DNA of 64,000 nt from Phyllobacterium phragmitis (lineage in GTDB: Bacteria > Pseudomonadota > Alphaproteobacteria > Rhizobiales > Rhizobiaceae): NCBI RefSeq assembly GCF_002980495.1, contig NZ_PVBR01000006.1, forward strand, positions 124,001 to 188,000, read 5' to 3'. Below, piece by piece: positions 3,524-50,124 of this stretch (positions are counted from its first letter, which is position 1; each line of letters starts with the position of its first letter). The position numbers were made by a program, and so were the translations under genes. Below the pieces are notes generated by a model that worked only from the letters and a program-made list of their open reading frames with translations, was not told the origin of the DNA and made no database searches.

Positions 3524-3524
3524 C

Positions 3525-4625: not shown

Positions 4626-4629
4626 GATC

Positions 4630-26521: not shown

Positions 26522-26538
26522 GTCATCAACAGATACGT

Positions 26539-28589: not shown

Positions 28590-28597
28590 TTTCAGCC

Positions 28598-32407: not shown

Positions 32408-33107
32408 ATGACGATCAAGGACAACAACTTCCTGCGCGAGCACAAAGCGCGCCATCAACTTCACCCAATGATCCATGCGTTTATTTCGGAGGAGCATCCG
32501 CCGCAGATCATTGTCAAAGGCGATGGCGTGTTTGTCACCGACATTGATGGCGGGAACTATCTCGACGGGATCGGCGGGCTCTGGAATGTGAATGTCGGGC
32601 ACAATCGGGCTGAGGTCAAAGCCGTGCTCATCGAGCAGATGGACAACATCAGCTATTATTCGAGCTTCGCCGGCACAACCACTGCGCCGTTGATCGCGCT
32701 TTCCGCCGAAATCATGGATCTGGCGGCGGAAGAGGACATGGTCAAGGTGCTGTTCTCGACATCGTCGAACGGGAAAAGCTTCCCCAGAATGCCGAGATCC
32801 AGGACGAGCGGCTGTTCAAAGGCCTCGCCGATACCCCCTCGTGGTCATCGCTTACCGGCGAAGTGCGGGGCAAGGGGCTGATGGTCGGCATTGATATGGT
32901 CGCCGACAAAAAGACACACGAACCGATTGATCCCGGCAAGGGCCAGGGCGAGATGATTGCCGCCTTCGCCCGCGACGAGGGAGCCATCGTCGACCCGCCG
33001 GCTGCAACATCATCATATCGCCGCCGCTGATGCTGAAGGCCGAGCACGTTGACCAGATTGTCGGAGCGCTGACGACCGCTTTCCTGCGTTACGAAGACAG
33101 CAAATAG
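32408..33107 (+). pseudogene. class III aminotransferase, internal deletion plus frameshift
   Basis: The N-terminal 115 residues (FVTDIDGGNYLDGIGGLWNV, VGHNRAEVKAVL, YYSSFAGTTTAPLIALSAEI) are a normal omega-aminotransferase start. At about 32750-32770 the sequence jumps out of frame to a C-terminal part (NAEIQDERLFKGLADTP, GKGLMVGIDMV, FARDEGAIVDP). A further shift near 33000 moves the end (PPLMLKAEHVDQIVGAL) to another frame. About 230 residues including the PLP lysine are gone, so it cannot be active. Its former amine substrate may have been tryptamine-like, which is a guess. Confidence 0.9.
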
Positions 33108-34162: not shown

Positions 34163-34177
34163 GGAAGGAACGATGCA

Positions 34178-35296: not shown

Positions 35297-35316
35297 GACA
35301 GTTTAGGAACCAAAAA

Positions 35317-36234
35317 ATGAAACTTGTAACCTATCGTGCCGCGGCAGCGGCAGAGGGACGTCTTGGTGTTGTCTGGGGTGGACTTGTCATTGACGTCGAG
35401 CGACTCGGCGATGTAGTCGGGGAAGAGTTCCCGACCTCGATGCTTGATCTGATCGACCAGGGTCCGGATGCGTTGGCGGCTCTGGCTCGCGCGATCGCCG
35501 ACACCGATGGCAAACGCCCGACCGGCATTGCCGTTCCCGTTGAAAACGTGAAGATGCTGGCGCCCATTCCGCGTCCGCGCAAGAACATCTTCGGCATTGG
35601 CCTGAATTATGTCGAGCATGTCGCCGAATCCGCGCGATCGCTCGATACCTCCAAAGAGCTTCCCGACAAGCCGGTTGTGTTCTCAAAACCGCCGACGGCC
35701 GTCATAGCCGACGGCGAGCCGATCCAGCACAATGCTGCGATGACCCAGCAACTTGACTGGGAGGTCGAGCTGGCCGTGATCATCGGCAAGCGGGCGACCC
35801 GTATCGGCAAGGAAGACGCGATGAGCCACGTCTTCGGCTATTCGGTGATCAACGACGTTTCGGCGCGCGACAACCGGCGTGCCGGACAGTGGATCTTTTC
35901 CAAGGGGCAGGACAGCTATGCGCCGTTCGGTCCGGCGATCGTGACGGCTGATGAGATCATCGATCCGCACAATCTCGTCCTTTGGCTGAAAAAGAACGGC
36001 GAGGAAAAGCAACGTTCGAACACCAAGTTCCTGCTGTTTGATATTCCGACCCTGATAGCCGACTTGTCGTCGGGCATGACGCTGGAGCCTGGTGATATCA
36101 TTGCGACCGGAACACCCTCGGGTGTTGGCGCCGGGCGTGATCCGCAGGAATTCATGTGGCCCGGAGACGTCGTCGAATGTGGCGTCGACGGTATCGGCGT
36201 CCTGCGCAATCCTGTTGTGAAGATTGGTGATTGA
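35317..36234 (+). CDS. fumarylacetoacetate hydrolase-family protein (acylpyruvate hydrolase)
   Basis: This 305-residue enzyme carries the metal-site and active-site motifs of the family: GIGLNYVEHVAES, VVFSKPPTAVIADGEPI, DWEVELAVIIGKRATRI and GDIIATGTPSGVGAGR. It lies between a gentisate-dioxygenase-like gene and a maleate-isomerase-like gene. That order fits hydrolysis of maleylpyruvate to maleate and pyruvate without a glutathione-dependent isomerase. Fumarylpyruvate is the alternative substrate. Confidence 0.9.
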   Translation: MKLVTYRAAAAAEGRLGVVWGGLVIDVERLGDVVGEEFPTSMLDLIDQGPDALAALARAIADTDGKRPTGIAVPVENVKMLAPIPRPRKNIFGIGLNYVEHVAESARSLDTSKELPDKPVVFSKPPTAVIADGEPIQHNAAMTQQLDWEVELAVIIGKRATRIGKEDAMSHVFGYSVINDVSARDNRRAGQWIFSKGQDSYAPFGPAIVTADEIIDPHNLVLWLKKNGEEKQRSNTKFLLFDIPTLIADLSSGMTLEPGDIIATGTPSGVGAGRDPQEFMWPGDVVECGVDGIGVLRNPVVKIGD

Positions 36235-36235
36235 C

Positions 36236-36982
36236 ATGAACCAGTCGATCAAGATCGGCCAGATCGTTCCCTCGTCAAACCTGACCATGGAGCGCGAAAT
36301 TCCGGCCATGCTGCGTGCCCGCGAAAGCATTTTTCCGGAGCGTTTTTCGTTCCACTCCTCGCGGATGCGGATGAAGAAGGTCACTCCGGAAGAACTCAAG
36401 GCGATGGACCGTGACAGCGACCGTTGCGCATATGAGCTTTCCGATGCCGCCGTCGATGTGATGGGCTACGCCTGTCTTGTCGCCATCATGGCCATGGGCA
36501 AGGGCTATCACCGAGAAAGCCAGGAACGCCTGCACAGGATCACCGTTGAAAACGGTCACCCTGCGCCGGTGGTCAGTTCCGCCGGGGCGCTTGTCGACAG
36601 TCTCAAACTGATGGGGGCAAAGCGTATTTCGATTGTTGCGCCCTACATGAAACCACTGACCAAAATGGTGGCGGAGTATATCGAGGCCGAAGGTGTCGAG
36701 GTCAAGGATTACATTGCCCTGGAGATTCCGGACAATCTCGAGGTTGCCGCTCAGGACCCGATGAACCTTGTGGACATTTACAAGCGTCTTGACCTGAAGA
36801 ACATCGATGCCCTTGTGCTTTCAGCCTGCGTGCAAATGCCGTCGCTGGCGGCGATCCAGCGGGTTGAGGATGAATGCGGCATTCCGGTTTTGTCGGCGTC
36901 GGTGGCAACCATCCACCAGATGCTGGTGCAATTGGGTCTTGAGCCCAAGGTGCCCAATTGCGGAACTCTACTGGCCGGTTAG
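36236..36982 (+). CDS. maleate cis-trans isomerase-like Asp/Glu racemase-family protein
   Basis: This 248-residue protein starts IGQIVPSSNLTMEREI, close to the PSSNT-TME opening of maleate isomerases and arylmalonate decarboxylases. Two cysteines are in the expected places (VMGYACLVAIMA near 76; LSACVQMPSL near 194), the pair used by maleate isomerase. ATG 36236 lies 1 nt after the upstream stop. Converting maleate to fumarate would finish a glutathione-independent gentisate-type route into the TCA cycle. Confidence 0.85.
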   Translation: MNQSIKIGQIVPSSNLTMEREIPAMLRARESIFPERFSFHSSRMRMKKVTPEELKAMDRDSDRCAYELSDAAVDVMGYACLVAIMAMGKGYHRESQERLHRITVENGHPAPVVSSAGALVDSLKLMGAKRISIVAPYMKPLTKMVAEYIEAEGVEVKDYIALEIPDNLEVAAQDPMNLVDIYKRLDLKNIDALVLSACVQMPSLAAIQRVEDECGIPVLSASVATIHQMLVQLGLEPKVPNCGTLLAG

Positions 36983-37291
36983 GCGCGGCCTGACATACTG
37001 ACGCGGTGAGGGAGCCATCGCGTCCGCTCAGTTCGCCGATCCTGCACCTTCGCAGGCGACGGACACCTTTGATCGAGATTTCGATTGCACCAGCGTATCC
37101 AGTCCGGTCCAGCGGATTTTGAGTTGATGGAGAGCGTTCCGCAAGCCGATTAAGACCATACTTTAACATGCCAATACATAAGTTTATGGCTAAATATTTG
37201 GAAATCAATCGGCTTTTTTAAAGCGCTGTGCAAATGTCTTGACAGATGATGTTTTATATATAAATTTATGCAAAACCATAAAGCGTGCGAG
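36983..37291 (+). promoter_or_regulatory. intergenic control region of the Rieske operon, with operator site 2
   Basis: This 309-nt gap has three visible elements. An inverted repeat AAGCCGATT (37143-37151) / AATCGGCTT (37207-37215) is followed by TTTT; its 55-nt loop is long for a terminator. CATAA-GT-TTATG (37177-37188) is a small palindrome. A TTGACA at 37239-37244, weak -10 at 37261-37266, overlaps operator TGTTTTATATATAA (37250-37263), which matches the shared operator at 12 of 14 positions in the opposite orientation. Confidence 0.6.
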
Positions 37292-38236
37292 ATGCAAACC
37301 AAGACCTATCAGCTCCTTTCATCGGCTTACGAGACTGCTGACATAAAGAGGCTTGAATTCACCAGCGCTACCGGTGCGACATTAACCTGGACCGCGGGTG
37401 CGCATGTTCGCGTGTTGCTTACTGACGGAACCAGCCGGGCCTATTCCCTGCTGCGCCTGTCGGGATTGAGCGCCGGAGAACTGGCGTTGGGTGTTCTGCT
37501 TGAAAAGAACGGCCAAGGCGGATCCCGATTCATGCATGCGCTCAAACGGGGCGACAAGGTTCAGATTTCGGACCCGGTCAGTCAATTTGCGGTGCAGGAG
37601 CATGATGGACCCGCGATCCTGATTGCGGGCGGTGTCGGGATAACGCCGATCCTGTCCATGGCCGATGAGTTGGCCCGCGCGGGCCGGCTGTTTGAAGCGC
37701 ACTATGCGGGCCGAAGCGTAGGGAAGCTTGCATTTGTCAAAGAAATGCAACGCATTTGCGGGGACCGACTGTTTCTTCATTACGATGATCAGGACAATGC
37801 TCTCGACATCGGCGCCGTGCTGAATTCAGCAGCGAAGAATGCTCATCTCTATTTTTGCGGGCCGACGGGCATGATCGAGGCCATCAAGGCAACCGCGGAC
37901 AGACAAGGGTTTCCGTCGGATCAGTTGCACTATGAACTCTTCTCCGCCGCCATTGATCATGCATCCGATACGGCTTTCGATGTTGTTGTGAAGAGTTCGG
38001 GGCAGGTGGTTCACGTCGCCGCAGACAAGACAATCATCGAGGCGCTGGAAGATGCCGGTCTTGATCCGCTCTACGACTGCAAGCGCGGCGATTGCGGAAT
38101 TTGCCAGTGTGAGGTGATCGAGGGTGAACCCGATCATCGGGACGTCATTCTTTCAGACGCCGAAAAGGCTTCGGGGAAAGTGATGCAGATTTGCGTTTCG
38201 CGGTCGAAAACGCCGCGACTGGTTTTGGATATTTAG
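37292..38236 (+). CDS. oxygenase reductase, phthalate/vanillate type (FMN, NADH, C-terminal 2Fe-2S)
   Basis: This protein of about 314 residues has a flavin domain (SRAYSLLRL), a NADH domain (ILIAGGVGITPILSMADEL) and a C-terminal plant-type ferredoxin with its four cysteines in CKRGDCGICQCEV and MQICVS. It passes electrons to the Rieske oxygenase encoded next. An in-frame ATG at 37268 would fall inside the promoter/operator, upstream of the predicted transcription start, so I prefer ATG 37292. It is first of a long plus-strand run to about 45.6 kb. Confidence 0.9.
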   Translation: MQTKTYQLLSSAYETADIKRLEFTSATGATLTWTAGAHVRVLLTDGTSRAYSLLRLSGLSAGELALGVLLEKNGQGGSRFMHALKRGDKVQISDPVSQFAVQEHDGPAILIAGGVGITPILSMADELARAGRLFEAHYAGRSVGKLAFVKEMQRICGDRLFLHYDDQDNALDIGAVLNSAAKNAHLYFCGPTGMIEAIKATADRQGFPSDQLHYELFSAAIDHASDTAFDVVVKSSGQVVHVAADKTIIEALEDAGLDPLYDCKRGDCGICQCEVIEGEPDHRDVILSDAEKASGKVMQICVSRSKTPRLVLDI

Positions 38237-38254
38237 TCCGCAAGGGAGGTTGTC

Positions 38255-39595
38255 ATGGATCGATACCGTGGGAATGCGAAGGCCATACGGGATCTGGTGA
38301 AGGGCTATGCCGTTCATCGCGACACCTATGTGGACAAGGAGATCTTTGATCTGGAAATGGAGAATCTATTTCCAAACACATGGGTCTATGTCGGCCATGC
38401 CAGTCAATTGAAGAATCCGGGCGATTTCATCACTTCGAAAATCGGCCACCAGCCCATATTGATCTCCCGCCATCGCGATGGAGAGATCTACGTTCTGCAC
38501 AACCGGTGCCCGCACAAAGGTGTCAAGATTGCATCGGAGGCCTGCGGAAACACGGGTAAATTCTTCCGCTGCCCCTATCACGCATGGTCGTTCAAGACCG
38601 ATGGATCGATTCTCGCGATCCCGCTGAAGAAAGGGTATGAAGGGACCGGTTTCGACACGCAAGCCGCATCCGAAGGGCTTGCGCGCGTCAGGAATGTCAA
38701 GGTCTATCGCGATTTCATTTTTGCCAGACTCGCCGACAACGGGCCCTCCTTTGAAGAGTATTTCGGCGAGTCCCTGTCAACCATCGACAACATGATCGAC
38801 CGGTCCCCGGAAGGGAAGCTTGAGATCATTGCTCCGCCAATCCGCTACATGCATCAGTGCAACTGGAAGATGCTGGTGGATAATCAGACTGACACCTGCC
38901 ACCCGATGGTCGCCCATGAAAGCTCCGCCGGCACCGCTGTGAGCGTCTGGGAACGCGAGAAGCACAAGTTCACGGAAACCCCGATGGCGGTGCAGCTCTA
39001 TGCACCGTTTATGTCACCCTATGAGTTTTATGAGGGAGCGGGTATCCGGGTCTGGCCGAATGGTCATGGCCATACAGGGGTCTCGGGATCGATCCATCAG
39101 GACTACGACGATGTGTCCGAATACATGGCAAGGATGGAGGCGTCCTATGGGCCGGAAAGGGCCAGGGAAATCCTCGGCGATGTTCGCCACAACACAATCT
39201 ATATGCCGAATATCATGGTCAAGGGACCGGTCCAGATCCTGCGCAACTTTATCCCTCTCGCCGTCGACAAGACCTTGGTTGAAAGCTTCGTCTTTCGCCT
39301 CGTTGGTGCGCCGGACAAGATATATGAGCGGTCGCTTATGTACAATCGCTTCATCAATGCGCCGACCTCGATCGTGGGTCACGATGATCTGGAAATGTAC
39401 GAGCGAGCCCAGGAGGGACTGCACTCGGATGGCAATGAATGGATAGACCTTCATCGCCTGTACGAAGCGGACGAACAGCGTGATGCGAACGAGGTCGTCA
39501 ATGGAACATCAGAGCGGCAGATGCGCAACCAGTTCTATGCCTGGAGCAAGTTCATGACGCTCGGCATGGATGAACCCGTGGAGGCTGCGGAATGA
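38255..39595 (+). CDS. Rieske non-heme iron aromatic-ring dioxygenase, alpha subunit
   Basis: This 446-residue catalytic subunit holds a Rieske 2Fe-2S site with Cys85-x-His87 and Cys106-x2-His109. The mononuclear iron site has DTCHPMVAHES providing His216 and His221. Together with the adjacent beta subunit and reductase it forms a two-component oxygenase. Related Rieske oxygenases in auxin-degradation loci attack the indole ring of indole-3-acetate. Anthranilate or salicylate hydroxylation is a real alternative. Confidence 0.9.
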   Translation: MDRYRGNAKAIRDLVKGYAVHRDTYVDKEIFDLEMENLFPNTWVYVGHASQLKNPGDFITSKIGHQPILISRHRDGEIYVLHNRCPHKGVKIASEACGNTGKFFRCPYHAWSFKTDGSILAIPLKKGYEGTGFDTQAASEGLARVRNVKVYRDFIFARLADNGPSFEEYFGESLSTIDNMIDRSPEGKLEIIAPPIRYMHQCNWKMLVDNQTDTCHPMVAHESSAGTAVSVWEREKHKFTETPMAVQLYAPFMSPYEFYEGAGIRVWPNGHGHTGVSGSIHQDYDDVSEYMARMEASYGPERAREILGDVRHNTIYMPNIMVKGPVQILRNFIPLAVDKTLVESFVFRLVGAPDKIYERSLMYNRFINAPTSIVGHDDLEMYERAQEGLHSDGNEWIDLHRLYEADEQRDANEVVNGTSERQMRNQFYAWSKFMTLGMDEPVEAAE

Positions 39596-40065
39596 AACCG
39601 GATCGGATTGTAGACTTCATCTATGATGAAGTTGCGGCTCTCGATGAGATGCGCTGGGAAGACTGGTTGTCGTTGTTTCACGAGGAGGGGCGCTACTGGA
39701 TGCCGCTCGAATGGAAGCAGCAGGACCCGATCATGCAGCCGTCGCTGATGTATGAAGACCGGCTGTTGCTGACGGTGCGGGTGGAGCGGCTTGCTGGCGA
39801 ACGCACCTTCAGCCAAAAGCCCAAAAGCCGTTGCCATCACCTGCTTGAGCGGCCGCGCATTCTGTCACTTGGCGAAGGTGACGGCGTCTGCAAGGCCAGG
39901 ACATCCTTCGTCTACACCGAAACACGGGGCGACCAGCTTGAGCGTTATTCGGGCTGGGTGTCGCATCACTTGGTCGAAGAGAACGGTGCGCTGAGGATCA
40001 AGCTCAAGCGGATTGATCTGATCAATTTCGATGCCCCGTTCGGCAATCTCCAACTCTTCATTTAA
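39592..40065 (+). CDS. aromatic-ring dioxygenase, beta subunit
   Basis: This 157-residue NTF2-like beta subunit starts in a 4-nt ATGA overlap with the alpha-subunit stop, so the two are made in equal amounts. The family pattern LDEMRWEDWLSLFHEEGRYW and the C-terminal strand set are clear. Beta subunits shape the alpha3-beta3 hexamer and have no metals. The pair defines an alpha-beta type oxygenase rather than a homotrimeric one. Confidence 0.9.
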   Translation: MKPDRIVDFIYDEVAALDEMRWEDWLSLFHEEGRYWMPLEWKQQDPIMQPSLMYEDRLLLTVRVERLAGERTFSQKPKSRCHHLLERPRILSLGEGDGVCKARTSFVYTETRGDQLERYSGWVSHHLVEENGALRIKLKRIDLINFDAPFGNLQLFI

Positions 40066-40073
40066 GGCGGCGC

Positions 40074-41687
40074 ATGTCCCAGCAAACAGTTTTCGAACGC
40101 TTCACTGATGCTATTCATCGGCGGGGTGAGGCACCCTTTCTGCAGGTTCTGGAAGAAACCGCCGGGATCTACGGGATCCCGGCGGGTGAAATTTCCTATG
40201 CCGAAATGGGGGCGCGCGTCAGCGTCTGGGCCAAGCAGCTCACCCAGGCAGGCTACGGGGCAGGTCACCGCGTCGGACTGCTGCTACAAAACAGGCCAGT
40301 GTATCTGGAGATCTGGCTAGCGCTCAACAGCCTCGGTGCCTCGGTCGTACCGATCAATCCGGACCTGCGGCTCGCAGAACTGGAATACGTCGCCCAACAC
40401 TCGGAAATGATCTTGGCGATTGTCCTGCCCGAAAGAGTCGAAGAATTGCGGCAGGCCGCCGCGAACGCGGGTCTGAACTTGCCGGTAATCTCCCCCGGAG
40501 ACGCGCTGCCTGACGCGATCCTCCCCGCTTCGGGCAGCGTGGAACTGGGCAATTCCACCGAATGCGCGTTGCTCTATACGTCCGGGACAACCGGCCAGCC
40601 CAAAGGCTGCATCTTAAGCAACGAGTACTTCCTTCATTCCGGTGACTGGTACGCTGAAACCGGAGGCTACATCGGCTTGCGCAAGAATTGCGAGCGGATG
40701 CTCACGCCCTTGCCAGTCTTTCATATGAATGCCATGGCCGTTTCCGTCATGGCGATGATCACGGTTGGCGGCTGCATTATCCTTCTGGACCGTTTCCATC
40801 CCAGAAGCTGGTGGCATTCGGTGCGCGAGAGCGGCGCCACCGTGGTTCACTATCTCGGCGTCATGCCATCGATGTTGAGCAGCGCTCCACGATCGTCGTC
40901 TGATCGCGACCATTCGGTTCGCTTTGGGTTCGGCGCCGGCGTGGACAAGAAGCTGCACGAGCCATTTGAACAGCGTTTCGGCTTCCCGCTCATTGAGGCC
41001 TGGGCCATGACGGAAACCGGCAGTGGCGGCGTGATTTGCGCCAACGAAGAGCCGCGCAAGATCGGCACTTCCTGCTTCGGCCGGGCCGAACCGTCTGTTG
41101 AAGTGCGGGTGGTTGATGACGCGGGGCAAGATGTCGAGGGGGATGTTGCCGGTGAACTTCTTGTCCGCCGCAAGGGCGACAATCGCCGCTACGGCTTCTT
41201 TTCCGGATACCTGAAAAACCAGCAGGCCACCGATGAAGTCTGGGAAGGTGGTTGGTTTCATACCGGCGATATCGTCTCGCGGGATCCCGACGGTTCGTTT
41301 CATTTCGTCGACCGAAAGAAAAACGTCATCCGCCGGTCGGGCGAAAACATCGCCGCTGTGGAAGTCGAGACCATCCTCAATCGGCATCCGGACATCCGCA
41401 TGGCTGCGGCTGCGGCGACGCCGGACGAAACCCGCGGCGATGAGGTTGCGGTCGTCATTGTACTGGAAACGGGTGAGGGTTCGGCCAGGAAAGCCGACGA
41501 GATTGTGCATTGGGCGCTGGATCAGATGGCGTATTACAAGGTCCCGGGCTGGGTGTGCTTCGTTGATGAACTGCCGTTGACCGCCACACGGAAAATCCTG
41601 CGTGGAAAGGTCAAGGACCTGGTTGGGGAACTCATGAACAATAGCGGCTTACACGACACCCGCTCACTCAAGAGGCGAAGGGCTTGA
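40074..41687 (+). CDS. acyl-CoA synthetase / aryl acid-CoA ligase (triplet A, gene 1)
   Basis: This 537-residue AMP-forming ligase has the P-loop LLYTSGTTGQPKGC, the A5-like AWAMTETGSGG segment, the hinge region FHFVDRKKNVIRRSGENI and the catalytic lysine in TATRKILRGKV. It is the first gene of a ligase / thiolase-like / DUF35-SDR triplet that recurs in mirror image at 45.7-49.9 kb. Given the Rieske oxygenase just upstream, I infer that it activates the hydroxylated oxindole-acetate to its CoA ester. Confidence 0.9.
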   Translation: MSQQTVFERFTDAIHRRGEAPFLQVLEETAGIYGIPAGEISYAEMGARVSVWAKQLTQAGYGAGHRVGLLLQNRPVYLEIWLALNSLGASVVPINPDLRLAELEYVAQHSEMILAIVLPERVEELRQAAANAGLNLPVISPGDALPDAILPASGSVELGNSTECALLYTSGTTGQPKGCILSNEYFLHSGDWYAETGGYIGLRKNCERMLTPLPVFHMNAMAVSVMAMITVGGCIILLDRFHPRSWWHSVRESGATVVHYLGVMPSMLSSAPRSSSDRDHSVRFGFGAGVDKKLHEPFEQRFGFPLIEAWAMTETGSGGVICANEEPRKIGTSCFGRAEPSVEVRVVDDAGQDVEGDVAGELLVRRKGDNRRYGFFSGYLKNQQATDEVWEGGWFHTGDIVSRDPDGSFHFVDRKKNVIRRSGENIAAVEVETILNRHPDIRMAAAAATPDETRGDEVAVVIVLETGEGSARKADEIVHWALDQMAYYKVPGWVCFVDELPLTATRKILRGKVKDLVGELMNNSGLHDTRSLKRRRA

Positions 41688-42856
41688 ACCGGCGCCCGGT
41701 TGCATACGATGGTGTTGCTGTCTGCTGCCCCGTCACCGTTCCGTATGTTCGCTACTCACCTGAAACCGCGCATTGGTGGGCCGGTGCCGCATTGAGCGCG
41801 CTGGCCGGGCGTACCGGCCTGGGGCCGGCTGATATCGACGGGTTTTGTTTTGCCAGCTTTTCGTCGGGACCGGACACTGTGGTCGGCATGATCCAGCATC
41901 TTGGGCTCAGTCCGAGTTGGATGGATCACATTCCGACAGGGGGCGCCAGCGGCGTCATGGCGATGCGCCGCGCCGCGCGCGCCGTCCAGTCACGAGACGC
42001 CGAAATTGTTGTTTGCCTTGCCGCCGATACCAATCATGTCGACAGCTTCCGCCAGACCCTTGCTGGATTTTCGCGGTTTTCTCAGGACGCTATGTATCCT
42101 TATGGATTTGGCGGGCCGAATGCGACCTTTGCGCTAATTACAGACAATTACATGCGCACATATGGGATTGGGCGGGAGAGCTTCGCCAAGCTCTGTGTGG
42201 CGCAACGGGCAAACGCCCTGTCCAATCCTCATGCCTTGATGAAACACCCACTGAGTTTTGAACAATACATGACATCCCGGGTGATCAGCGATCCGGTTCA
42301 TCTTCTGGATTGCGTCATGCCCTGCGCAGGTGCTGAAGCCTTTATTGTGACCACAGAAGAGAAGGCGGAATCCCTGGGTCTTCCTGCAGCCTCGATCATG
42401 GCGACGATCGAACGCCACAACGCGTTTCCCGAAGATCCCGTCCAGGTCCGTGGCGGATGGGCCAGGGATGTAGACACGCTTTGGAACGCCGCCGGATGCG
42501 GCCCCGAAGACATGGATACGATCCAGTTCTACGATGATTATCCGGTGATTGTGGCCATGCAGATGGAGGATCTAGGCTTCTGCCGGAAAGGCGAGGTCGC
42601 AGGCTTCATCGACAGGCACGATTTTACCGTATCCGGTTCGATGCCGCTCAATACCAATGGTGGTCAACTCTCGGCGGGGCAGGCGGGCGCAGCCGGCGGA
42701 TTCCAGAATGTCACCGAAGCATTGCGACAGGTGCTGCACAGTCCGCTGGGCGCCCAGGTGCCCGATGCCAGGCGGGTGCTTGTCTCGGGCTTCGGGCTCG
42801 TGAACTACGACCGGGGCGTTTGCACCGGAGCAGCTGTTCTCGAAGGGGTGAACTGA
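41684..42856 (+). CDS. thiolase-like / lipid-transfer (Ltp2-type) protein (triplet A, gene 2)
   Basis: This 390-residue protein has the thiolase fold but not thiolase catalysis. The nucleophile motif CASG is GASG (IPTGGASGVMAMRRA), and the C-terminal GHPxGATG histidine is Gln (GGQLSAGQAGAAGG). Tyrosines are conserved in YDDYPV and NYDRG. Thiolase-like proteins of this kind paired with a DUF35 partner act as retro-aldolases in steroid side-chain breakdown. The TTG at 41684 overlaps the ligase stop (TTGA) and has GAGG/GAAGG upstream. Confidence 0.85.
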   Translation: MNRRPVAYDGVAVCCPVTVPYVRYSPETAHWWAGAALSALAGRTGLGPADIDGFCFASFSSGPDTVVGMIQHLGLSPSWMDHIPTGGASGVMAMRRAARAVQSRDAEIVVCLAADTNHVDSFRQTLAGFSRFSQDAMYPYGFGGPNATFALITDNYMRTYGIGRESFAKLCVAQRANALSNPHALMKHPLSFEQYMTSRVISDPVHLLDCVMPCAGAEAFIVTTEEKAESLGLPAASIMATIERHNAFPEDPVQVRGGWARDVDTLWNAAGCGPEDMDTIQFYDDYPVIVAMQMEDLGFCRKGEVAGFIDRHDFTVSGSMPLNTNGGQLSAGQAGAAGGFQNVTEALRQVLHSPLGAQVPDARRVLVSGFGLVNYDRGVCTGAAVLEGVN

Positions 42857-42857
42857 G

Positions 42858-44096
42858 ATGAGCAAAGGTCTCCCTCCTCCCGAGCGCAAGGATCCGCTGA
42901 AAATGTCTCGGCTCGGACATGTCTCGCCCGGTCTGCGCAGCCGCGCGGCGAGGGCGATGGCGGTGCGCGCGGGACAGGGGCGGTTCGTTCTTCAGGTCTG
43001 CGCGGGCTGCAGCGTTGCGACTTATCCGCCGCGTGACCGTTGCCCACAATGCTGGGGGGAGTTGCGGTGGGCCGACCAGCCCCACACCGCGGTGCTGCTG
43101 GCGGAAACCACGGTTCGGGCAACCACCGACAATTTTTATCGTGAACATCTGCCATGGCGGATCGGAACCGTTCAACTCGACGCCGGGCCCACAGCCGTGG
43201 CGCATCTTCATAGCGATGTGGCGGTTGGCGATCAGGTCAGAATGCGCCTGGTACTGGACCGCGGTGGCAATCCCGCCATGTTCGCGCTGCCTTTGAAGGA
43301 GACACCGCATATGCAGGATGATCCACAACTGCGCGTTTTCACGTCGGCGCCCAAGCACCGCCGTGTTCTCGTCACTGATGGACGGACCAAGCTTGGGCAG
43401 GAGGTCGCCTACGCGCTTCTAGAGGCTGGCGCCAGCACTGTTTTTCTCGGCAATTCCGACAGGCTGCTGCGGTATGACGGAGAGGACCAGATCGCTTCGA
43501 CACCCCATGTCGATGTGGTGCCGCTGGATTTGACCGACAACCGCAGTGTGAGCGAACTGGGTGGTCTGCTTGGTGGCCGCGTCGATATCATCGTCAACAC
43601 CGCAGGCTATGTCCGCCCCGGCGGAGTGTCGGTCGGAAGCAGGCTTGCAACGCTGCAAACAGCGATGGATGTCAATGCGTCGGGATTGATGCGCCTGGCA
43701 CAGGCCTTCTGTCCGGCGATGGGCGCCCGCTCGGATGATGGCGTGAATTCGGCCTCCGCATTCGTCGATATCAATTTCGTCTATGCGATGACGGGAAATG
43801 CCGGGTTCGCGGGTTTCTCGGCCAGCGCGGCGGCCAGGCAATCCTTGATCGCGGGCTTGCGTGGCGAGATGACAAGTGTCGGTATCCGGGTCGCAAGTGT
43901 GTTGTGCGGACCGATCGACGATGAATGGCATCAGGCGGTGCCGCTGCCCAAGGTCGCGCCCTCCAGAATTGCCAAGGCGGTTGTCCAGGCGCTTCAGGAC
44001 GGGCTGGAAGAGGCTTATGTCGGCGATATCGCCGAAGATCTGGCAAAGCGGTGGCGGCAGGATCCGCTATTGACCATGAGAGAGGAAAACCTATGA
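42858..44096 (+). CDS. DUF35 (Zn-ribbon/OB-fold)-SDR fusion protein (triplet A, gene 3)
   Basis: In this 412-residue fusion, residues 35-70 form a zinc ribbon (CAGCSVATYPPRDRCPQCW, CX2CX10CX2C) and residues 70-145 an OB fold. Residues 160-412 resemble a short-chain dehydrogenase (VLVTDGRTKLGQEVAYALL). The SDR part has lost its chemistry: YxxxK is FSASA, the catalytic Ser strand reads VDINF, and NNAG is NTAG. The DUF35 half should bind the thiolase-like protein and acyl-CoA. The SDR half is probably a scaffold or a lid. It starts 1 nt after the preceding gene's stop. Confidence 0.85.
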   Translation: MSKGLPPPERKDPLKMSRLGHVSPGLRSRAARAMAVRAGQGRFVLQVCAGCSVATYPPRDRCPQCWGELRWADQPHTAVLLAETTVRATTDNFYREHLPWRIGTVQLDAGPTAVAHLHSDVAVGDQVRMRLVLDRGGNPAMFALPLKETPHMQDDPQLRVFTSAPKHRRVLVTDGRTKLGQEVAYALLEAGASTVFLGNSDRLLRYDGEDQIASTPHVDVVPLDLTDNRSVSELGGLLGGRVDIIVNTAGYVRPGGVSVGSRLATLQTAMDVNASGLMRLAQAFCPAMGARSDDGVNSASAFVDINFVYAMTGNAGFAGFSASAAARQSLIAGLRGEMTSVGIRVASVLCGPIDDEWHQAVPLPKVAPSRIAKAVVQALQDGLEEAYVGDIAEDLAKRWRQDPLLTMREENL

Positions 44097-44884
44097 GCAA
44101 CTCCGGTTCACTTTGCATGCAGATGGTTGCGGCGCTGGTTAGTGGAAAGCTGAAATGCGTCGACTTGACCAATACCCTTTCTCCCGATTTTCCGGTGATT
44201 GTGTTGCCTGCCGAATTCGGCCAATGCGCGCCTTTTCGGGTCGAGACGCTGTCGCGTTACGACGAAAACGGCCCGGCCTGGTACTGGAACAACATCACCA
44301 TGAATGAGCACACCGGCACCCATTTCGATGCGCCGGCTCATTGGGTGACGGGCAAGGATTTGCCGGACAACACGGTCGACGCCGTTCCTGTCAGTGACTT
44401 TGTCGCGCCCGCGGTTGTTGTCGATATTTCCGCCGAGGCGGGGGCTGATGCGGATTTCGTGCTGACCCGGGCATATCTCGAGGATTGGGAAGCCAGGAAC
44501 GGAAAAATTCCGACACGGCACTGGGTTGCCTTGCGCACCGACTGGTACAAGCGGGTCGGCACCCCGGACTATCTGAACTTCAAGAAAGACGGCGCGCATT
44601 CGCCCGGTCCGGATGCGGGCGCCATGGAGTTTCTGGTGCATGAGAGGGACTGTATCGGGCTGGCTGTCGAGACAGTCGGAACTGACGCCGGACAGGCTTC
44701 TCATTTCAATCCGCCACTGCCAGCCCACTCGATCCTGCATGGCAACGGTCGCTATGGCCTCCAGTGCCTGACCAATCTCGACAAGCTGCCGACATTCGGA
44801 GCAATGATCGTAGCGGCGCCGCTAAAAATCGAGGGCGGTTCGGGCAGTCCTCTGCGGGTGTTTGCCCTTTTTGACGCGGAGTAA
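44093..44884 (+). CDS. cyclase-family metal hydrolase, isatin hydrolase candidate
   Basis: This 263-residue protein is of the cyclase/kynurenine-formamidase-like family, with the manganese/zinc motif HTGTHFDAPAHW (HxGTHxDxPxH) and LRTDWYKR. ATG 44093 overlaps the fusion gene's stop by 4 nt. Isatin hydrolases, which open isatin to isatinate, belong to this family and sit in bacterial indole/auxin pathways. Position directly after the putative isatin-forming genes makes that activity the best guess. Another cyclic amide or lactone is possible. Confidence 0.85.
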   Translation: MSNSGSLCMQMVAALVSGKLKCVDLTNTLSPDFPVIVLPAEFGQCAPFRVETLSRYDENGPAWYWNNITMNEHTGTHFDAPAHWVTGKDLPDNTVDAVPVSDFVAPAVVVDISAEAGADADFVLTRAYLEDWEARNGKIPTRHWVALRTDWYKRVGTPDYLNFKKDGAHSPGPDAGAMEFLVHERDCIGLAVETVGTDAGQASHFNPPLPAHSILHGNGRYGLQCLTNLDKLPTFGAMIVAAPLKIEGGSGSPLRVFALFDAE

Positions 44885-44889
44885 TTTTC

Positions 44890-45615
44890 ATGACGGGCAA
44901 AACGACGCTGATTACCGGCGGCAACTCCGGGATCGGGGCGGCGATCGCACAGCAGTTGCTGGCCACAGGCGAGGCGGTAGTTTCCCTGGGTCTGGAATTG
45001 CCCGGTTGGGAACATGAAAAGCTGAGCGGCTACACGGCAGATCTCACCGACGCGGCGGCAACAGCCGAGATTGCGGCGCGGATCGCCGCCGAACACCGGA
45101 TCGGTGCGCTGGTGCACAATGCCGGCATGATCCTGCCCAACCTGCTTGCCGACGCGAAATCCGAGGATGTTGTCAAACTCGCCCAATTGCATCTTGCGGC
45201 GCCGCTGACGCTTACACAGGCTATGCTGCCGGGATTGAAGGACAGCGGCCAGGGGCGCATCCTTTTCATCAGTTCGCGAGCTTCAATGGGAATGCCGACC
45301 CGCTCAGCCTATGCCTCCACAAAAGCCGGCGTGCATGGCTTGGCTCGGACATGGGCGCTCGAGCTCGCCGGCCAGGGTATTACCGTCAATGTCATCGCCC
45401 CCGGACCGGTGAAAACCGAAAACTTCTGGGGCATTGTGCCGAAGGGTGGTGAGCTCGAAGACAAAATCGCCAACTCCGTGCCGGTCAAACGTATCGGCAC
45501 ATCGGAAGACATCACCAATGCCGCCTTGTTCTTTCTCGATGCGAAGGCGAGCTTCATAACCGGTCAGGTGCTTTATGTCTGTGGCGGTACCAGCCTGGGC
45601 GGACTTGGAGCCTGA
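44890..45615 (+). CDS. short-chain dehydrogenase/reductase
   Basis: This 241-residue SDR has an intact TGGNSGIG cofactor site, VHNAG, serine strand (LFISSRAS) and the YxxxK catalytic pair (SAYASTKAGVHGL), unlike the SDR domains of its fused neighbours. It is last in the plus-strand run and starts 5 nt after the cyclase gene. It could oxidise or reduce a hydroxy/keto intermediate of the oxindole branch, for example dioxindole and isatin, which is inference. Confidence 0.9.
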   Translation: MTGKTTLITGGNSGIGAAIAQQLLATGEAVVSLGLELPGWEHEKLSGYTADLTDAAATAEIAARIAAEHRIGALVHNAGMILPNLLADAKSEDVVKLAQLHLAAPLTLTQAMLPGLKDSGQGRILFISSRASMGMPTRSAYASTKAGVHGLARTWALELAGQGITVNVIAPGPVKTENFWGIVPKGGELEDKIANSVPVKRIGTSEDITNAALFFLDAKASFITGQVLYVCGGTSLGGLGA

Positions 45616-45714
45616 TGCGTGTCGCTTTGAAACGGGTTCAATTCGGTAACGGTTCAATTTGGCGAGGCGATGTCGGTTTGCATTCGGGATCAAGAAAGCT
45701 CCGGCGAGAGGCAT

Positions 45715-46965
45715 TCAGGCGGATTGGTCCTTGTTCAATGCCCGCTCGGTACCTTTTTGGTTTTGTCTGATGCGCTCTCGAATGTCCCGGGCGATATCGT
45801 CCACAAACACATCCTCTTGCCCGTTCTGCAACGCCTTTACCAACGCCGAAGCGATGGTATGGGGCGCGACCTTGGGCGCTGGCAATGTCTGGTACCATTC
45901 ATCATCAATTGGCCCTGTAAACAGGTTGATCACCCGTACGCCGGCAGGTCGCAATTCACCGCGCAATGAATGCGACAGCGACAGGCAGCCCGCCTGGACT
46001 GCGCTGAACGCGCCGAACGGATTTGCATTCGCCAAGGCATAGGCAGAAAACACGTTCACCCACGCTGTGGCGCTGTTCGAACCATCCGCACCACGTGCCC
46101 GCATCGCCCCGCCAAAGGCTTGGGCAAGGTGTACAAAGCCAATGAAATGCTGGTTTAACTGGTCTCTGACGGAGGAGGCGTTTTTCTGGTCGAGCAGGTT
46201 GCCGGGGCGGACATAATCATTGGTGTTCACAAGGATGTCGACCTTGCCGCCTATCAGCGCTGCCAGTTCGCGCACCGATCGCTCGTCATCGACGCTCAGG
46301 TCCATCAACTGCAGCCGATCGTCAGTTTTGAGCTTCTCTTCACCTTCAAAAGGTATCCACGGTTCTGAGATCCCGACAAAAACCGTGCCTCCCGCATCTG
46401 CCAGTGCGCCGGCGATCGTTTGGCCAACGCGGGTGCGCCCGGCGGTCACCAGCACGCGCCGAAATTTGGGAGCCGCAGTCATCTCGCGCCATTGGGTGTC
46501 ATCGGTCATGTTGGGCACATCCTGTTCAGGCCGCCCGAAAGCGGCGGCATTGCCGGCCTTGTCCATTTGAAGCGACATCCGAACTCGATCACCCGTGGCG
46601 CAATCGGCGTGCAAATGGGCCACCAGGATCGGGCCGCAATCCAGTTTCACCAACCCGATTAGCCACGGCGCACGCTCGCGAAAATAGAGCTCGCCTGGTA
46701 CCGATATCAGAGTGTGTGACAGGACCTTGCCGCCCGCGGGAAGGTCGGTGAGCGGCAAATCATCGGAAAGACACTCGGAGCAGGCGTCGCGCGGCGGGTA
46801 TGCGATGGTGCCGCATTCGGTGCATTCTTGTAGCGCGAACCGGCCTTCGGCCGCGGCTGCAGTGAGGATCTGGGCAGTGCGCGATTGAAACGACGGGGGC
46901 AGCATCGGCACCTGTGTGCGAACCAGCGGATTCTTGCGGGCCGGGCGCTTGAGAGGCTCTGTCAT
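45715..46965 (-). CDS. DUF35 (Zn-ribbon/OB-fold)-SDR fusion protein (triplet B, gene 3)
   Basis: This 416-residue paralogue of the fusion at 42858 has zinc ribbon CTECGTIAYPPRDACSECL and an OB fold. Its SDR-like half (VLVTAGRTRVGQTIAGAL) again lacks the active site: YxxxK is FSAVQ and NNAG is NTND. Both copies share GPIDDEWYQ or GPIDDEWHQ near the end. ATG 46965 sits just after the stop of the thiolase-like gene; a TTG at 46971 would overlap it. The plus-strand run converges on it across a 99-nt gap holding a repeated GGTTCAATT (45635, 45651). Confidence 0.85.
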   Translation of the reverse strand: MTEPLKRPARKNPLVRTQVPMLPPSFQSRTAQILTAAAAEGRFALQECTECGTIAYPPRDACSECLSDDLPLTDLPAGGKVLSHTLISVPGELYFRERAPWLIGLVKLDCGPILVAHLHADCATGDRVRMSLQMDKAGNAAAFGRPEQDVPNMTDDTQWREMTAAPKFRRVLVTAGRTRVGQTIAGALADAGGTVFVGISEPWIPFEGEEKLKTDDRLQLMDLSVDDERSVRELAALIGGKVDILVNTNDYVRPGNLLDQKNASSVRDQLNQHFIGFVHLAQAFGGAMRARGADGSNSATAWVNVFSAYALANANPFGAFSAVQAGCLSLSHSLRGELRPAGVRVINLFTGPIDDEWYQTLPAPKVAPHTIASALVKALQNGQEDVFVDDIARDIRERIRQNQKGTERALNKDQSA

Positions 46966-46967
46966 GG

Positions 46968-48143
46968 TCAATCCCCCGCCAGAATGAGCGCGCCGGAAGA
47001 AAGACCGCGGTCATAGTTCATCATGCCAAACCCCGAGGCCAGAGCCAGTCGGGCGCCTGGAACCTGGGTCGGTCCGGCTGTGTCGGTAACCTGACGAAGC
47101 GCCTCGTTCAGGCCCAGATATCCGCCACCACCACCGGCTTGTCCGCATGACAGCTGACCGCCCGATGTGTTGTGCGGGAAATCACCGTCAATCCTGAGGT
47201 CATGCGCACGGACAAACTCAGCGCCTTCGCCCTTTTTGCAGAAGCCGAGATCCTCGAATTGCATCATGCAGATCACCGGATAGTCGTCATAGGTCTGGAC
47301 CACGTCCAGATCCGAGGGGCGTATACCCGCGATTGCATAAAGTTCGTCGATATCGGCAACCCAACCGCCGCGAAGCTGTACGTCATCACTCACCGCATTG
47401 TGGCGTTCAATGGAAGACAGAAGCCGTGCGAAGGGCAGGCCAAGCATTTTGGCTGTTTCTTCCCGCATGACCAGCAGACCCTCGGCACCGGCGCACGGCA
47501 TAACACAATCGAACAGATGGATTGGGTCGGAGATCGGGTGCGCCTTCATATACTGCTCCAGAATGAGCGGCTTTTTCATCAAAGCGTTGGGATTACGCAA
47601 CGCATTGTCGCGCTGCGCAACCGCGATACGACCGAGGTCTTCACGTGTTACCCCGAACTGGTTCATGTAATTCCGGGCAATCAAGGCGAAGCTCGCGTTT
47701 GCCCCGCCGGACCCGTAGGACAACACCGCATCCTGGGCAAATCTGGCGAAATTTGCTGTCGTCTGCCGAAAAGTATCGACGTGGTTGGTATCTGCCCCGA
47801 TACAGGCCACCACGCGGGCATCTCCCGCCTGCACTGCCCTTGCTGCGCGGCGCACGGCAGCGATCCCGCTCGCTCCACCCAAGGGGATGGTATCAATCCA
47901 GCGCAAGGACATCCCCATATGTTGTGCCAATCCGATGGCGCTGTCGGGCCCAACTGTGAAGCTGGAAAGGCAAAAGCCATCAATCTCCTTATGAGATAGC
48001 CCGGCCGATTTGCTTAACCCGCGCAGTGCCTGCCCTATCCACCAATGGGCAGGTCTTGTTGAAAATCGTTGATAGGGGACCGTGACCGGGGATGCCAGCA
48101 CAACGCCGTCATACCCGCTCCGCGTTTTTAGGGTGGCGCTCAA
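46968..48143 (-). CDS. thiolase-like / lipid-transfer (Ltp2-type) protein (triplet B, gene 2)
   Basis: This 391-residue paralogue of the gene at 41684 has the same losses: GASG for CASG (IPLGGASGIAAVRRA) and GGQLSCGQAGGGGG where the catalytic His should be. YDDYPV and NYDRG are kept. The start is a TTG at 48143 behind a G-rich site, as in its paralogue. Conservation of the altered residues in both copies argues for a different, shared chemistry rather than decay. Confidence 0.85.
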   Translation of the reverse strand: MSATLKTRSGYDGVVLASPVTVPYQRFSTRPAHWWIGQALRGLSKSAGLSHKEIDGFCLSSFTVGPDSAIGLAQHMGMSLRWIDTIPLGGASGIAAVRRAARAVQAGDARVVACIGADTNHVDTFRQTTANFARFAQDAVLSYGSGGANASFALIARNYMNQFGVTREDLGRIAVAQRDNALRNPNALMKKPLILEQYMKAHPISDPIHLFDCVMPCAGAEGLLVMREETAKMLGLPFARLLSSIERHNAVSDDVQLRGGWVADIDELYAIAGIRPSDLDVVQTYDDYPVICMMQFEDLGFCKKGEGAEFVRAHDLRIDGDFPHNTSGGQLSCGQAGGGGGYLGLNEALRQVTDTAGPTQVPGARLALASGFGMMNYDRGLSSGALILAGD

Positions 48144-48271: not shown

Positions 48272-49909
48272 CTACCGTTTGATCTTGTAGCCCGTCCGGT
48301 CAAGATCCCACATGCCTTCGACAATTCCGTCCGCTCGTAAAACCACTTTCTTGACCTTGCCGTTTTCTGTGAGCGGCATGTCAGCAACAATCCTGAGAAA
48401 ACGGGGTACTGCGAAATAGGCCAAACGGCTTTCCGCAAATTTGATCAGGTCGAGTTCATCGAACCGTACGCCGGGTTTCAATTGTAAGGCCACTGCAACT
48501 TCTTCCTCGCCTAACTCCGAGGGTACAGGATAAGCCGCACACGCTTTTATGGCGGGATGGGAGAGTATTACCTGCTCGACTTCCCAGCTGGAAACGTTTT
48601 CCCCACGACGGCGGATGGCGTCTTTTTTTCGGTCAATGAAGCGGTAATAGTTTGCCGGTTCACGTAAGACGCGGTCGCCAGTGTGAAACCAAAGGTTCTG
48701 CCACGCTTCGACTGTTTTTCCGGGCATCCCGAAATACCCGGATGCAAAGGAATACGGCTCTGTAGGGCGCAAAAGCAGTTCGCCGGCCTCGCCATCGGGA
48801 ACGGGCGTTTGGTGTTCATCGACGATCAGTGCTTCCGCGCCGGGCGCCAGATATCCCATAGATCCCGGATGATCCGACGGAGCAGGCGTATAGAAAATGA
48901 AATTGGTCTCTGTCGAGGCGTATCCATCCACTAATGGCACACCGAAACGCTGCAGAAACGGAGCCTGCATCGGCCCGGGCACGCCGCCGCCCAACGCGAC
49001 CCGCACCCTGTGGTCCTTGTCATTACCTCGGGCGGGTTGGGCCATCAGTATGGCGGCCATTGCGCTCAGAAGATATGTCACCGTCGCGCCCGATTCCCTG
49101 GCTCGATCCCAGAAGCGGGATGCGGAGAATTTCGATTCGAGCACGTATCCACATCCGTTCAGCAATGCCTGGTAGAAGGTGTTCAACGCATTAGTGTGGA
49201 ATACAGGCAGGGCGGTCATCAGCACATCACCTTCACGCACGCCGAGCGCGCGCGCCGAGTACACTCCCCACCAGAACATTTGTGCCTGTGGGCAACAAAC
49301 ACCTTTCGACGGGCCGGTTGTGCCGGATGTGTAGAGAATTGCGACCGTGTGGCCGGGGGTTGTACACGGGACCAGCGTCATGTCGCCGGCATCGGATGAA
49401 ATCAGATCGGCGCCGTCGCTTGTGACTATTCCATCATCCTTGATCTGCCAGATCAGGCTGGGCACTTTCGTCCCCTCGGGCAGGTCTTCGTAGACTGGCC
49501 GGAACTTGGATTCCACGACCAGGAGTTTGGGTTCGGCATTGTTCATCACGTGGGCCAGCTGGGTGCCGCGAAACGCGGTATTGATGGGAGTGGCAATGGC
49601 CCCAAGCCAGGCGCATCCCAGATATATTTGCAAGAACTCGTGGCGGTTGCTGGAGTGAATGGCAACCCTGTCTCCGACAATCACACCAGCATTGGCAAGA
49701 TATCGGGCGTAAGTTTCTGCGATCTGGGCTGTTTGTTCAAAGCTCCAGCGGACATCGCCGCAGGACACCAATATCTTGTCGCGGTACTTTTCGGCTTGGC
49801 GCTTCAGAAGCGTGTACAGCGTCCGGTCCTTGGGCGGGAATTCCTTGGAAATCCGCGAATAATTGTCAATAGCCTGGCGCTGCTCCGATGTCGGTTCCAA
49901 GTGCGTCAA
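48272..49909 (-). CDS. AMP-binding acyl-CoA synthetase (triplet B, gene 1)
   Basis: This 545-residue ligase has the P-loop AILYTSGTTGPSKGV, the YASTETNF segment, hinge YRFIDRKKDAIRRRGENV and a lysine in TENGKVKKVV. I place the start at TTG 49909 with GGGAG 6 nt upstream. An in-frame TTG at 50002 would begin inside the promoter and read through the operator (encoding DYFTYKA), so it is not the start. It heads triplet B on the minus strand; 128 nt separate it from the thiolase-like gene. Confidence 0.88.
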   Translation of the reverse strand: MTHLEPTSEQRQAIDNYSRISKEFPPKDRTLYTLLKRQAEKYRDKILVSCGDVRWSFEQTAQIAETYARYLANAGVIVGDRVAIHSSNRHEFLQIYLGCAWLGAIATPINTAFRGTQLAHVMNNAEPKLLVVESKFRPVYEDLPEGTKVPSLIWQIKDDGIVTSDGADLISSDAGDMTLVPCTTPGHTVAILYTSGTTGPSKGVCCPQAQMFWWGVYSARALGVREGDVLMTALPVFHTNALNTFYQALLNGCGYVLESKFSASRFWDRARESGATVTYLLSAMAAILMAQPARGNDKDHRVRVALGGGVPGPMQAPFLQRFGVPLVDGYASTETNFIFYTPAPSDHPGSMGYLAPGAEALIVDEHQTPVPDGEAGELLLRPTEPYSFASGYFGMPGKTVEAWQNLWFHTGDRVLREPANYYRFIDRKKDAIRRRGENVSSWEVEQVILSHPAIKACAAYPVPSELGEEEVAVALQLKPGVRFDELDLIKFAESRLAYFAVPRFLRIVADMPLTENGKVKKVVLRADGIVEGMWDLDRTGYKIKR

Positions 49910-49961
49910 TGTGTTCTCCCAGGATTGAAGATGCGGAAAAATGGTTCCGGCAGCAGTTGCC

Positions 49962-49998
49962 TTATATGTAAAATAATCTGTCGGGTTGCTTACGTCAA
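49962..49998 (-). promoter_or_regulatory. triplet B promoter with shared operator (site 3)
   Basis: On the minus strand TTGACG (49998-49993), a 17-nt spacer and TATTTT (49975-49970) form a promoter. The plus-strand reading TTATATGTAAAATA (49962-49975) covers the -10 box. Transcription should begin near 49963, about 54 nt before the TTG start at 49909. Confidence 0.7.
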
Positions 49999-50124
49999 AC
50001 AACTTCTGCGGGCGATCTGGAGCCTGTGAAATTCGTCAGCGCAGTCAGAAAATCTTCTATCTATATGGTTTTAATAGGAAATAAATCTCGGATGGTTCAT
50101 GTGCCGAGAGAGCATTTATATGCT

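Follow-up and report, generated by a model that had tools for sequence, protein, structure and literature searches.

Several proteins of the thiolase fold act together with a partner that carries a DUF35 domain, and two of these pairs are aldolases of steroid metabolism. The Sal-Shy(DUF35) aldolase of Comamonas testosteroni cleaves bile-acid side chains, releasing an aldehyde and acetyl-coenzyme A (acetyl-CoA), and its structure is available (9myr; PMC12329534). As described there, Tyr302 and Cys304 of CtSal are catalytic, Gln347 and Gln352 are proposed helpers, and a Gly replaces the nucleophilic Cys of thiolases. The second pair, Ltp2-ChsH2(DUF35) (TcLtp2, 6ok1), converts a tertiary alcohol to a ring ketone and an acyl-CoA, removing a propionyl unit. 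The DUF35 domain has been found indispensable for the aldolase in a steroid degrader (PMC12502768). According to the Sal paper, benzoylsuccinyl-CoA thiolase BbsAB (7pxp) and an archaeal acetoacetyl-CoA thiolase (6esq), enzymes of true thiolysis, also work in DUF35 complexes, and a trypanosome homologue is suspected to be a further thiolase-fold aldolase (PMC12329534). The iad locus for auxin degradation in Variovorax paradoxus CL14 (PMC9613470, PMC10374108, PMC12633357) likewise encodes a thiolase-like protein, IadG, which is called a ketothiolase there, and IadH, which is called an alcohol dehydrogenase. A further example of this locus lies within a 64,000-nucleotide stretch of Phyllobacterium phragmitis (contig NZ_PVBR01000006.1, positions 124,001 to 188,000; hereafter the window), and the function of its IadG-IadH pair is considered here.

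This pair is very probably, at an estimated probability of about 0.85, a DUF35-dependent β-hydroxyacyl-CoA retro-aldolase of the thiolase fold that would cleave dioxindole-3-acetyl-CoA to isatin and acetyl-CoA, an assignment based on sequence comparison and a predicted structure. A preliminary description of the window had put forward this cleavage, and it is supported by the active-site residues, the phylogenetic tree, the predicted fold, the DUF35 partner, the isatin-hydrolase neighbour, the redox balance and the published knock-outs of orthologues. The genes that bear most directly on the assignment are as follows.

40074 to 41687, + strand: IadF, an AMP-forming acyl-CoA ligase, the proposed maker of dioxindole-3-acetyl-CoA
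41684 to 42856, + strand: IadG copy 1 (T1), thiolase fold with G87, Y283-D-D-Y286, Q328 and Q333, TTG start; proposed retro-aldolase subunit
42858 to 44096, + strand: IadH copy 1 (S1), zinc ribbon (C48, C51, C62, C65), OB-fold (DUF35/ChsH2) and a short-chain dehydrogenase/reductase (SDR) fold lacking the catalytic Tyr and Lys; proposed partner of IadG
44093 to 44884, + strand: IadI, isatin hydrolase family, with the HxGTHxDxPxH metal motif and the diagnostic Gln
45715 to 46971, - strand: IadH copy 2 (S2), DUF35 and degenerate SDR
46968 to 48143, - strand: IadG copy 2 (T2), with the same active-site motif, on another branch of the IadG tree

In alignments with PDB sequences, Gly87 of IadG copy 1 falls on the nucleophilic Cys of thiolases (“CASG” in 7yvy and 6esq), Gln333 on the His of the thiolase “GH” motif, and Y283-D-D-Y286 on HDAF/HDCF. 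In a set of 42 distinct IadG sequences that contains both window copies, Gly87, YDDY, Gln333 and Asn146 are each invariant, and Gln328 is present in 41, the exception being a single masked X. None of the 42 carries the β-ketothiolase set of Cys nucleophile, HDxF/NEAF and GHP His, whereas 7yvy, 7pxp and 6esq retain the Cys, HDxF and GHP His. The thiolase catalytic groups are lost in IadG and the replacement set is strongly constrained; because the same residues are invariant in 42 distinct members, their replacement is not a matter of chance. The substitutions first noticed in the two window copies, Gly for the Cys of CASG and Gln for the GHP His, as well as the YDDY kept in both, recur in all 42 sequences. 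The NYDRG motif noted alongside them is present in both window copies and is not strict in the family (N 39/42, Y 40/42, D 41/42, R 42/42, G 41/42).

These residues bear on two other explanations. In databases and in the Variovorax preprint, IadG is read as an ordinary β-ketothiolase, which would use free CoA to cleave a 3-oxoacyl-CoA, for instance 2-aminobenzoylacetyl-CoA. Its thiolase superfamily matches and its annotation in PMC12633357 agree with this, and for Bradyrhizobium a pathway through 2-aminobenzoylacetate had been postulated earlier (Egebo 1991, cited in PMC8383072). Yet the nucleophilic Cys, the HDxF His and the GHP His are all missing from every IadG, and the accumulating C10H9NO4 discussed below would be a β-hydroxy acid if the structure given in the preprint is right, which together make this function highly improbable. 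The name alone is no evidence, as 4u4e (Sphaerobacter) is titled a putative thiolase while it, too, lacks the Cys and HDxF and groups with the YDxF proteins. A non-catalytic pseudo-thiolase, serving as a scaffold for IadF or IadI, would also fit the missing thiolase residues; this is scarcely credible given that the replacing residues are invariant, that several match the aldolase set, and that deletion of iadG lowers anthranilate (PMC12633357).

The aldolase assignment of IadG is consistent with its nearest relatives. In sequence, both copies match 9myr best among PDB entries (E 6e-46 and 2e-48). An AlphaFold2 model of copy 1, the copy that was modelled (predicted local distance difference test score 84.7, predicted template modelling score 0.88), adopts the thiolase fold, and its top Foldseek match is again 9myr (E 5e-31, template modelling score 0.86). 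The spacings of Y283, Q328 and Q333 equal those of CtSal Y302, Q347 and Q352, with the numbering checked. Gly for the Cys nucleophile and the Tyr of YDx[FY] are common to IadG (42/42 each), CtSal and TcLtp2, and IadG shares with Sal both active-site Gln residues, a DUF35 partner and, as proposed, acetyl-CoA as the leaving product. In contrast, IadG is 28% identical to Sal and has Asp285 (42/42) in place of the catalytic Cys304 of the Sal YDCY motif, and Phe149 in place of Tyr165. The genomic context also differs, with steroid genes around Sal and auxin genes around IadG; the DUF35 partner of Sal comes with a MaoC hydratase and that of IadG is fused to a degenerate SDR. The product of Sal is an aldehyde, whereas that of IadG-IadH would be a ketone, and in this respect Ltp2-ChsH2 provides the closest reaction type. 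Ltp2 is, however, 25% identical to IadG, and its YDHF and catalytic Tyr344 are absent from IadG, which has YDDY and GQ.

The phylogenetic tree comprises 77 sequences, which remain from 91 distinct ones after removal of the short L027 and of 13 nearly identical sequences from Acidimicrobiia (including L044). PDB references entered it as the segments printed by HMMER instead of whole chains, and supports were read as splits of an unrooted tree. The 42 IadG sequences form a split with support 100. They join YDDY relatives with stand-alone DUF35 proteins (L056, L096; 100), then YDDF relatives (L065, L066; 97) and then the Sal branch (92). This grouping excludes TcLtp2 and three true thiolases. The preliminary description had likened the pair to Ltp2-ChsH2, which holds for membership in the group of thiolase-fold/DUF35 aldolases; the nearest solved relative is Sal-Shy(DUF35). 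Because the acid residues of both are absent, IadG is best classed as neither Sal nor Ltp2 and as a third variant in the wider Sal/Ltp2 group. Two outgroup loci add to this picture. In one (L092), an enoyl-CoA hydratase, a YDDF thiolase-like protein, a DUF35 protein and a CoA ligase form one gene run; in the other (L091), hydratase, thiolase-like and DUF35 genes stand together, and genes for a ligase and for an aldehyde dehydrogenase are found no more than about 5 kb away. Such a layout is expected of hydration followed by retro-aldol cleavage.

Downstream of each IadG copy in the window, and on the same strand, lies a DUF35-SDR fusion gene, which confirms the pairing with a DUF35 protein described earlier. 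Both fusions match zf-ChsH2 and OB_ChsH2_C above the Pfam cut-offs, a DUF35-SDR homologue is present in all 27 IadG-encoding loci of the pattern-search set described below, and the four zinc Cys residues are kept in 41/41 distinct IadH homologues. The second half of IadH is predicted with high confidence to adopt the SDR fold. It lacks the hallmarks of a catalytic SDR: Tyr and Lys are missing in both window proteins, the YxxxK pair is found in none of the 41 homologues (2 keep only the Lys and 9 only the Tyr), and the first Gly of TGxxxGxG is likewise absent from all of them (0/41). Three plasmid-encoded homologues likewise have neither the Tyr-Lys pair nor this Gly. The neighbouring SDR of the operon, IadJ, retains the Tyr, Lys, Ser and the Gly of the nucleotide motif.

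The “adjacent cyclase” of the preliminary description was taken to be the enzyme that consumes isatin, and IadI indeed belongs to the isatin hydrolase family, matching 5nna with E 5.5e-105. The HxGTHxDxPxH motif occurs in 25/25 aligned IadI-type sequences, the window's included, and the window IadI has a Gln that aligns with Gln219 of LaIHA. LaIHA (5nnb) has measured isatin hydrolase activity, and Gln219 separates isatin hydrolase from kynurenine formamidase (PMC6117287). On a Roseibium aggregatum plasmid with the same operon, the adjacent cyclase is identical to LaIHA/5nnb at 248 of 257 positions. The operon is found on a megaplasmid in Ruegeria pomeroyi DSS-3, a species included in published tests of auxin degradation (PMC9613470). 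More broadly, IadG homologues matching at E 1e-80 or better occur in 36 plasmid records, from Sulfitobacter, Roseibium/Labrenzia, Novosphingobium and Ruegeria among others, and 34 of these records are typed as non-mobilizable.

The association of IadG with isatin hydrolase extends well beyond the window. A search with two short peptide patterns returned 46 loci, of which 27 encode IadG and 19 are distant (L027, L029-L046; 24-31% identity, without YDDY) and served only as outgroups; further IadG loci came from scans of 61 relative genomes and 398 genomes of the phylum. IadI lies within the fetched 10 to 21 kb in 24 of the 27 loci. The genomes of the other three also have a homologue, on another contig in L017 and on the same contig as iadG, at about 10 kb (L026) and 11 kb (L028), in the other two. 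In the 398-genome sample, scored for at most four candidates per genome, IadG (at least 665 bits; next relatives at most 288) is found in 8 genomes, the window's included, and isatin hydrolase (E 1e-60 or better) in 25. Each of the 8 IadG genomes also has the hydrolase (P 7e-11; 7/7 without the window genome, P 1e-9; indicative values only, as the genomes are related), and in 8/8 the two genes are 1.2-1.3 kb apart. Thirteen loci (L005-L015, L019, L021), mostly of sphingomonads with two azospirilla and one alphaproteobacterium, keep F-G-H-I without C, D, E or J in the fetched 21 kb, and a search of five of these genomes gave no IadD match above 33%. IadA/B-like genes lie near F-G-H-I in the three such loci displayed (L005, L011, L019). 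F-G-H-I is in this sense a single unit, in line with a role in converting dioxindole-acetic acid to isatinate that does not depend on how the substrate is made. A flavin monooxygenase was considered as the front end of the loci lacking a Rieske oxygenase: a 633-residue HsaA/HpaB-type relative is encoded in L026, but a close one was found in only 1 of 12 other genomes tested (G453, 42%). That locus, from a Maritimibacter metagenome-assembled genome with an IadG of the copy 2 type, encodes at 3064-5349 and 12374-14275 a protein of the bifunctional salicylyl-CoA 5-hydroxylase/oxidoreductase family (1205 bits against a cut-off of 1078) and the HsaA/HpaB-like oxygenase, which possibly serve an aminobenzoyl-CoA route and another way to oxidise auxin.

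Published genetics provide the in vivo context. In Variovorax CL14, deletion of iadF, iadG, iadH or iadI lowers anthranilate and leads to accumulation of C10H9NO4, most strongly for iadF, and the authors identify this compound as dioxindole-3-acetic acid (PMC12633357, preprint). Isatin and isatinic acid have been reported as intermediates (PMC9613470, PMC8383072). The mass balance is C10H9NO4 = C8H5NO2 (isatin) + C2H4O2 (acetic acid), which is redox neutral, so that a retro-aldol cleavage needs no reductant. In the proposed mechanism, IadF would first make dioxindole-3-acetyl-CoA. By homology, Tyr283 would act as the base that removes the proton of the C3 hydroxyl, with cleavage of the C3-CH2 bond. 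Asp285, which occupies the position of Sal Cys304, would likewise be the acid that protonates the acetyl-CoA enolate, helped by Gln328 and Gln333; Asn146 is a candidate oxyanion-hole residue. The CoA thioester would be needed to stabilise the enolate. With isatin and acetyl-CoA as products, neither free CoA, NAD(P)H nor a covalent acyl-enzyme would be required. IadI would then hydrolyse isatin to isatinate, and the SDR half of IadH would play no redox role, serving instead as a structural or channelling module. The hydroxyl group of the substrate is presumably placed by the oxygenase and dehydrogenase of the pathway, hence no hydratase would be needed. Of the conserved tyrosines singled out earlier, only Tyr283 has a proven catalytic counterpart; Tyr286 aligns with CtSal Tyr305, whose mutation causes no more than a 7.6-fold loss (PMC12329534).

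A number of observations weigh against this assignment. Chief among them, C8H7NO2 and not isatin was seen upstream of IadI, in strains without iadI, and C10H9NO4 also accumulates on deletion of iadI, so that the phenotype is not specific to iadF, iadG and iadH (PMC12633357). From annotation, the same authors propose a ketothiolase (IadG) and an alcohol dehydrogenase (IadH) in a reductive removal of -C2H2O2. The position of the CtSal oxyanion-hole residue Gln161 is occupied in IadG by Pro (35/42; Pro145 in copy 1) or Ala (7/42). As CtSal C304A, C304S and C304H have no detectable activity (PMC12329534), the acid may be a residue other than Asp285. No enzyme assay of IadG was found in the literature consulted, and no aldolase reading of it in a literature search whose reach excluded subscription papers and most preprints. 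Near the YDDY thiolase-like genes of two loci outside the IadG clade (L093:8843-10419 and L096:8421-9988), which have a stand-alone DUF35 and a class III CoA-transferase gene close by, no isatin hydrolase was found in about 19 kb. YDDY alone was accordingly rejected as proof of an indole substrate, and these two proteins are perhaps aldolases for another CoA substrate.

Further such points concern IadH. The catalytic Ser column of its SDR half is Ser in 34/41 homologues, and in 5u4s, the SDR structure closest to it, the Tyr is missing as well, yet the entry is described as an NADP complex; the SDR half of IadH may therefore bind a nucleotide. Together with the predicted SDR fold and the accumulation of C8H7NO2, which by its formula we take to be dioxindole, these features would suit a bifunctional aldolase-reductase, in which the SDR half reduces isatin at once and dioxindole is the true product. 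Such an enzyme is very unlikely, since neither the YxxxK pair nor the first Gly of TGxxxGxG is kept in any IadH and the family of the neighbouring hydrolase has isatin as its measured substrate. Moreover, other reductases could make dioxindole from isatin as a side reaction when IadI is missing, which would account for C8H7NO2 under retro-aldol cleavage to isatin. The loss of the Tyr-Lys pair also counts against the reductive cleavage proposed for Variovorax (PMC12633357).

The second IadG-IadH pair runs toward the first operon, and its assignment is less certain. IadG copies 1 and 2 are 58% identical and the two DUF35-SDR fusions 44%; in the tree the copies are old branches and not a recent duplication, and Hoeflea sp. 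BAL378 also has both (L001, L028). The preliminary description regarded both copies as retro-aldolases, which is supported for copy 1 and more weakly for copy 2. The latter probably catalyses the same reaction, served by a CoA ligase of its own, and one may speculate that its substrate is ring-substituted or the opposite enantiomer. Against this, no oxygenase or hydrolase is encoded on its own strand. It is possible, if rather doubtful, that the copies differ, with copy 1 making isatin and copy 2 cleaving another β-hydroxyacyl-CoA. Their old divergence and the surroundings of copy 2, with its own ligase and TRAP-transporter-like and Asp/Glu-racemase-like genes, would agree with this, as would the YDDY relatives near CoA-transferases (L093, L096), given that YDDY does not fix the substrate. 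In three genomes of 7-9 Mb from the same order (G275, G258, G169; L088-L090), however, a G-H-I set contains an IadG closest to copy 2 (72% identical) with an isatin hydrolase adjoining it, and an IadD homologue lies 19-32 kb away on the same contig (in two of the three this match has one in-frame stop). The copy 2 branch thus also goes with isatin hydrolase, and in the window only about 2 kb separate copy 2 from the iadI gene of the first operon. The Asp/Glu-racemase-like gene of the window (55747-56544, + strand), which like the TRAP-transporter-like genes lies beyond the ligase of copy 2, recurs near IadG of the copy 2 type in L024, L028, L060, L062, L063, L088-L090 and L094 (56-93% identical to the window's), with a 41% identical one in L023.

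The remaining genes of the two cassettes and the separate IadA/B-like pair are listed here.

37268 to 38236, + strand: IadC, ferredoxin/FAD/NAD reductase of the Rieske oxygenase
38255 to 39595, + strand: IadD, Rieske oxygenase alpha subunit
39592 to 40065, + strand: IadE, presumed beta subunit of the Rieske oxygenase, a name given by position (L097 and L098 have annotated beta subunits in this place)
44890 to 45615, + strand: IadJ, SDR with YxxxK and TGxxxGxG kept
48272 to 50002, - strand: F2, CoA ligase of the second cassette, PRK06155 family (752 bits, cut-off 722)
27024 to 28601, - strand: IadB-like, POR and DUF6537 subunit
28598 to 30751, - strand: IadA-like, indolepyruvate:ferredoxin oxidoreductase alpha-like (thiamine pyrophosphate), below the NCBIfam equivalog cut-off

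The first operon is a tight block (37268-45615, + strand) of reductase, Rieske alpha and beta subunits, CoA ligase, thiolase-like protein, DUF35-SDR fusion, cyclase and SDR, in which the stop of IadF overlaps the start of IadG and the ATG of IadI (44093) overlaps the stop of IadH. Gene names were assigned by position and enzyme type. The order C-D-E-F-G-H-I-J, with its Rieske oxygenase, is that of the published Variovorax locus as taken from the gene numbers in PMC10374108, and the enzyme types are shared; its first pair is iadG-iadH, and the window differs in carrying a further G-H pair, accompanied by a separate ligase. On the opposite strand (25497-30751), two MarR-type regulators, a 4HBT-type thioesterase and the IadB/IadA-like genes are consecutive. 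Isatinate is a 2-oxo acid, so IadAB and the thioesterase could yield anthranilate from it through anthraniloyl-CoA. Upstream of iadC (33116-36982, + strand) lie genes for a nitrilase, a gentisate/5-aminosalicylate dioxygenase-like protein, an FAA hydrolase and an arylmalonate-decarboxylase/EutA-like protein (the NCBIfam matches fall below the cut-offs), which look like anthranilate ring cleavage by a gentisate-like route. A 157-residue open reading frame at 32408-32881 (+ strand) matches only positions 8-92 of the 403 of a class III aminotransferase profile and is apparently a gene remnant.

Inhibition of root growth can be reversed by bacteria that remove auxin through the iad pathway, and work is under way to engineer root bacteria to carry this pathway (PMC9613470, PMC12633357). 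At present, the side-chain cleavage step is assigned to a thiolase and a dehydrogenase. If IadG-IadH is a retro-aldolase, this step would instead be redox neutral and yield acetyl-CoA, and the need for CoA activation would be explained by stabilisation of the enolate. Thiolase-fold aldolases would then extend beyond steroids, with a residue signature for re-annotating other “thiolases”. A bolder, tentative proposal is that the pair founds a third catalytic subtype outside steroid metabolism, defined by a Tyr-Asp pair (YDDY), in which a captured, dead dehydrogenase hands isatin directly to IadI. Such a hand-over would explain why intermediates between dioxindole-acetic acid and isatinate are scarce in cells, and many bacterial genes named for thiolases or lipid-transfer proteins and bearing YDxF/GG motifs would also encode aldolases.

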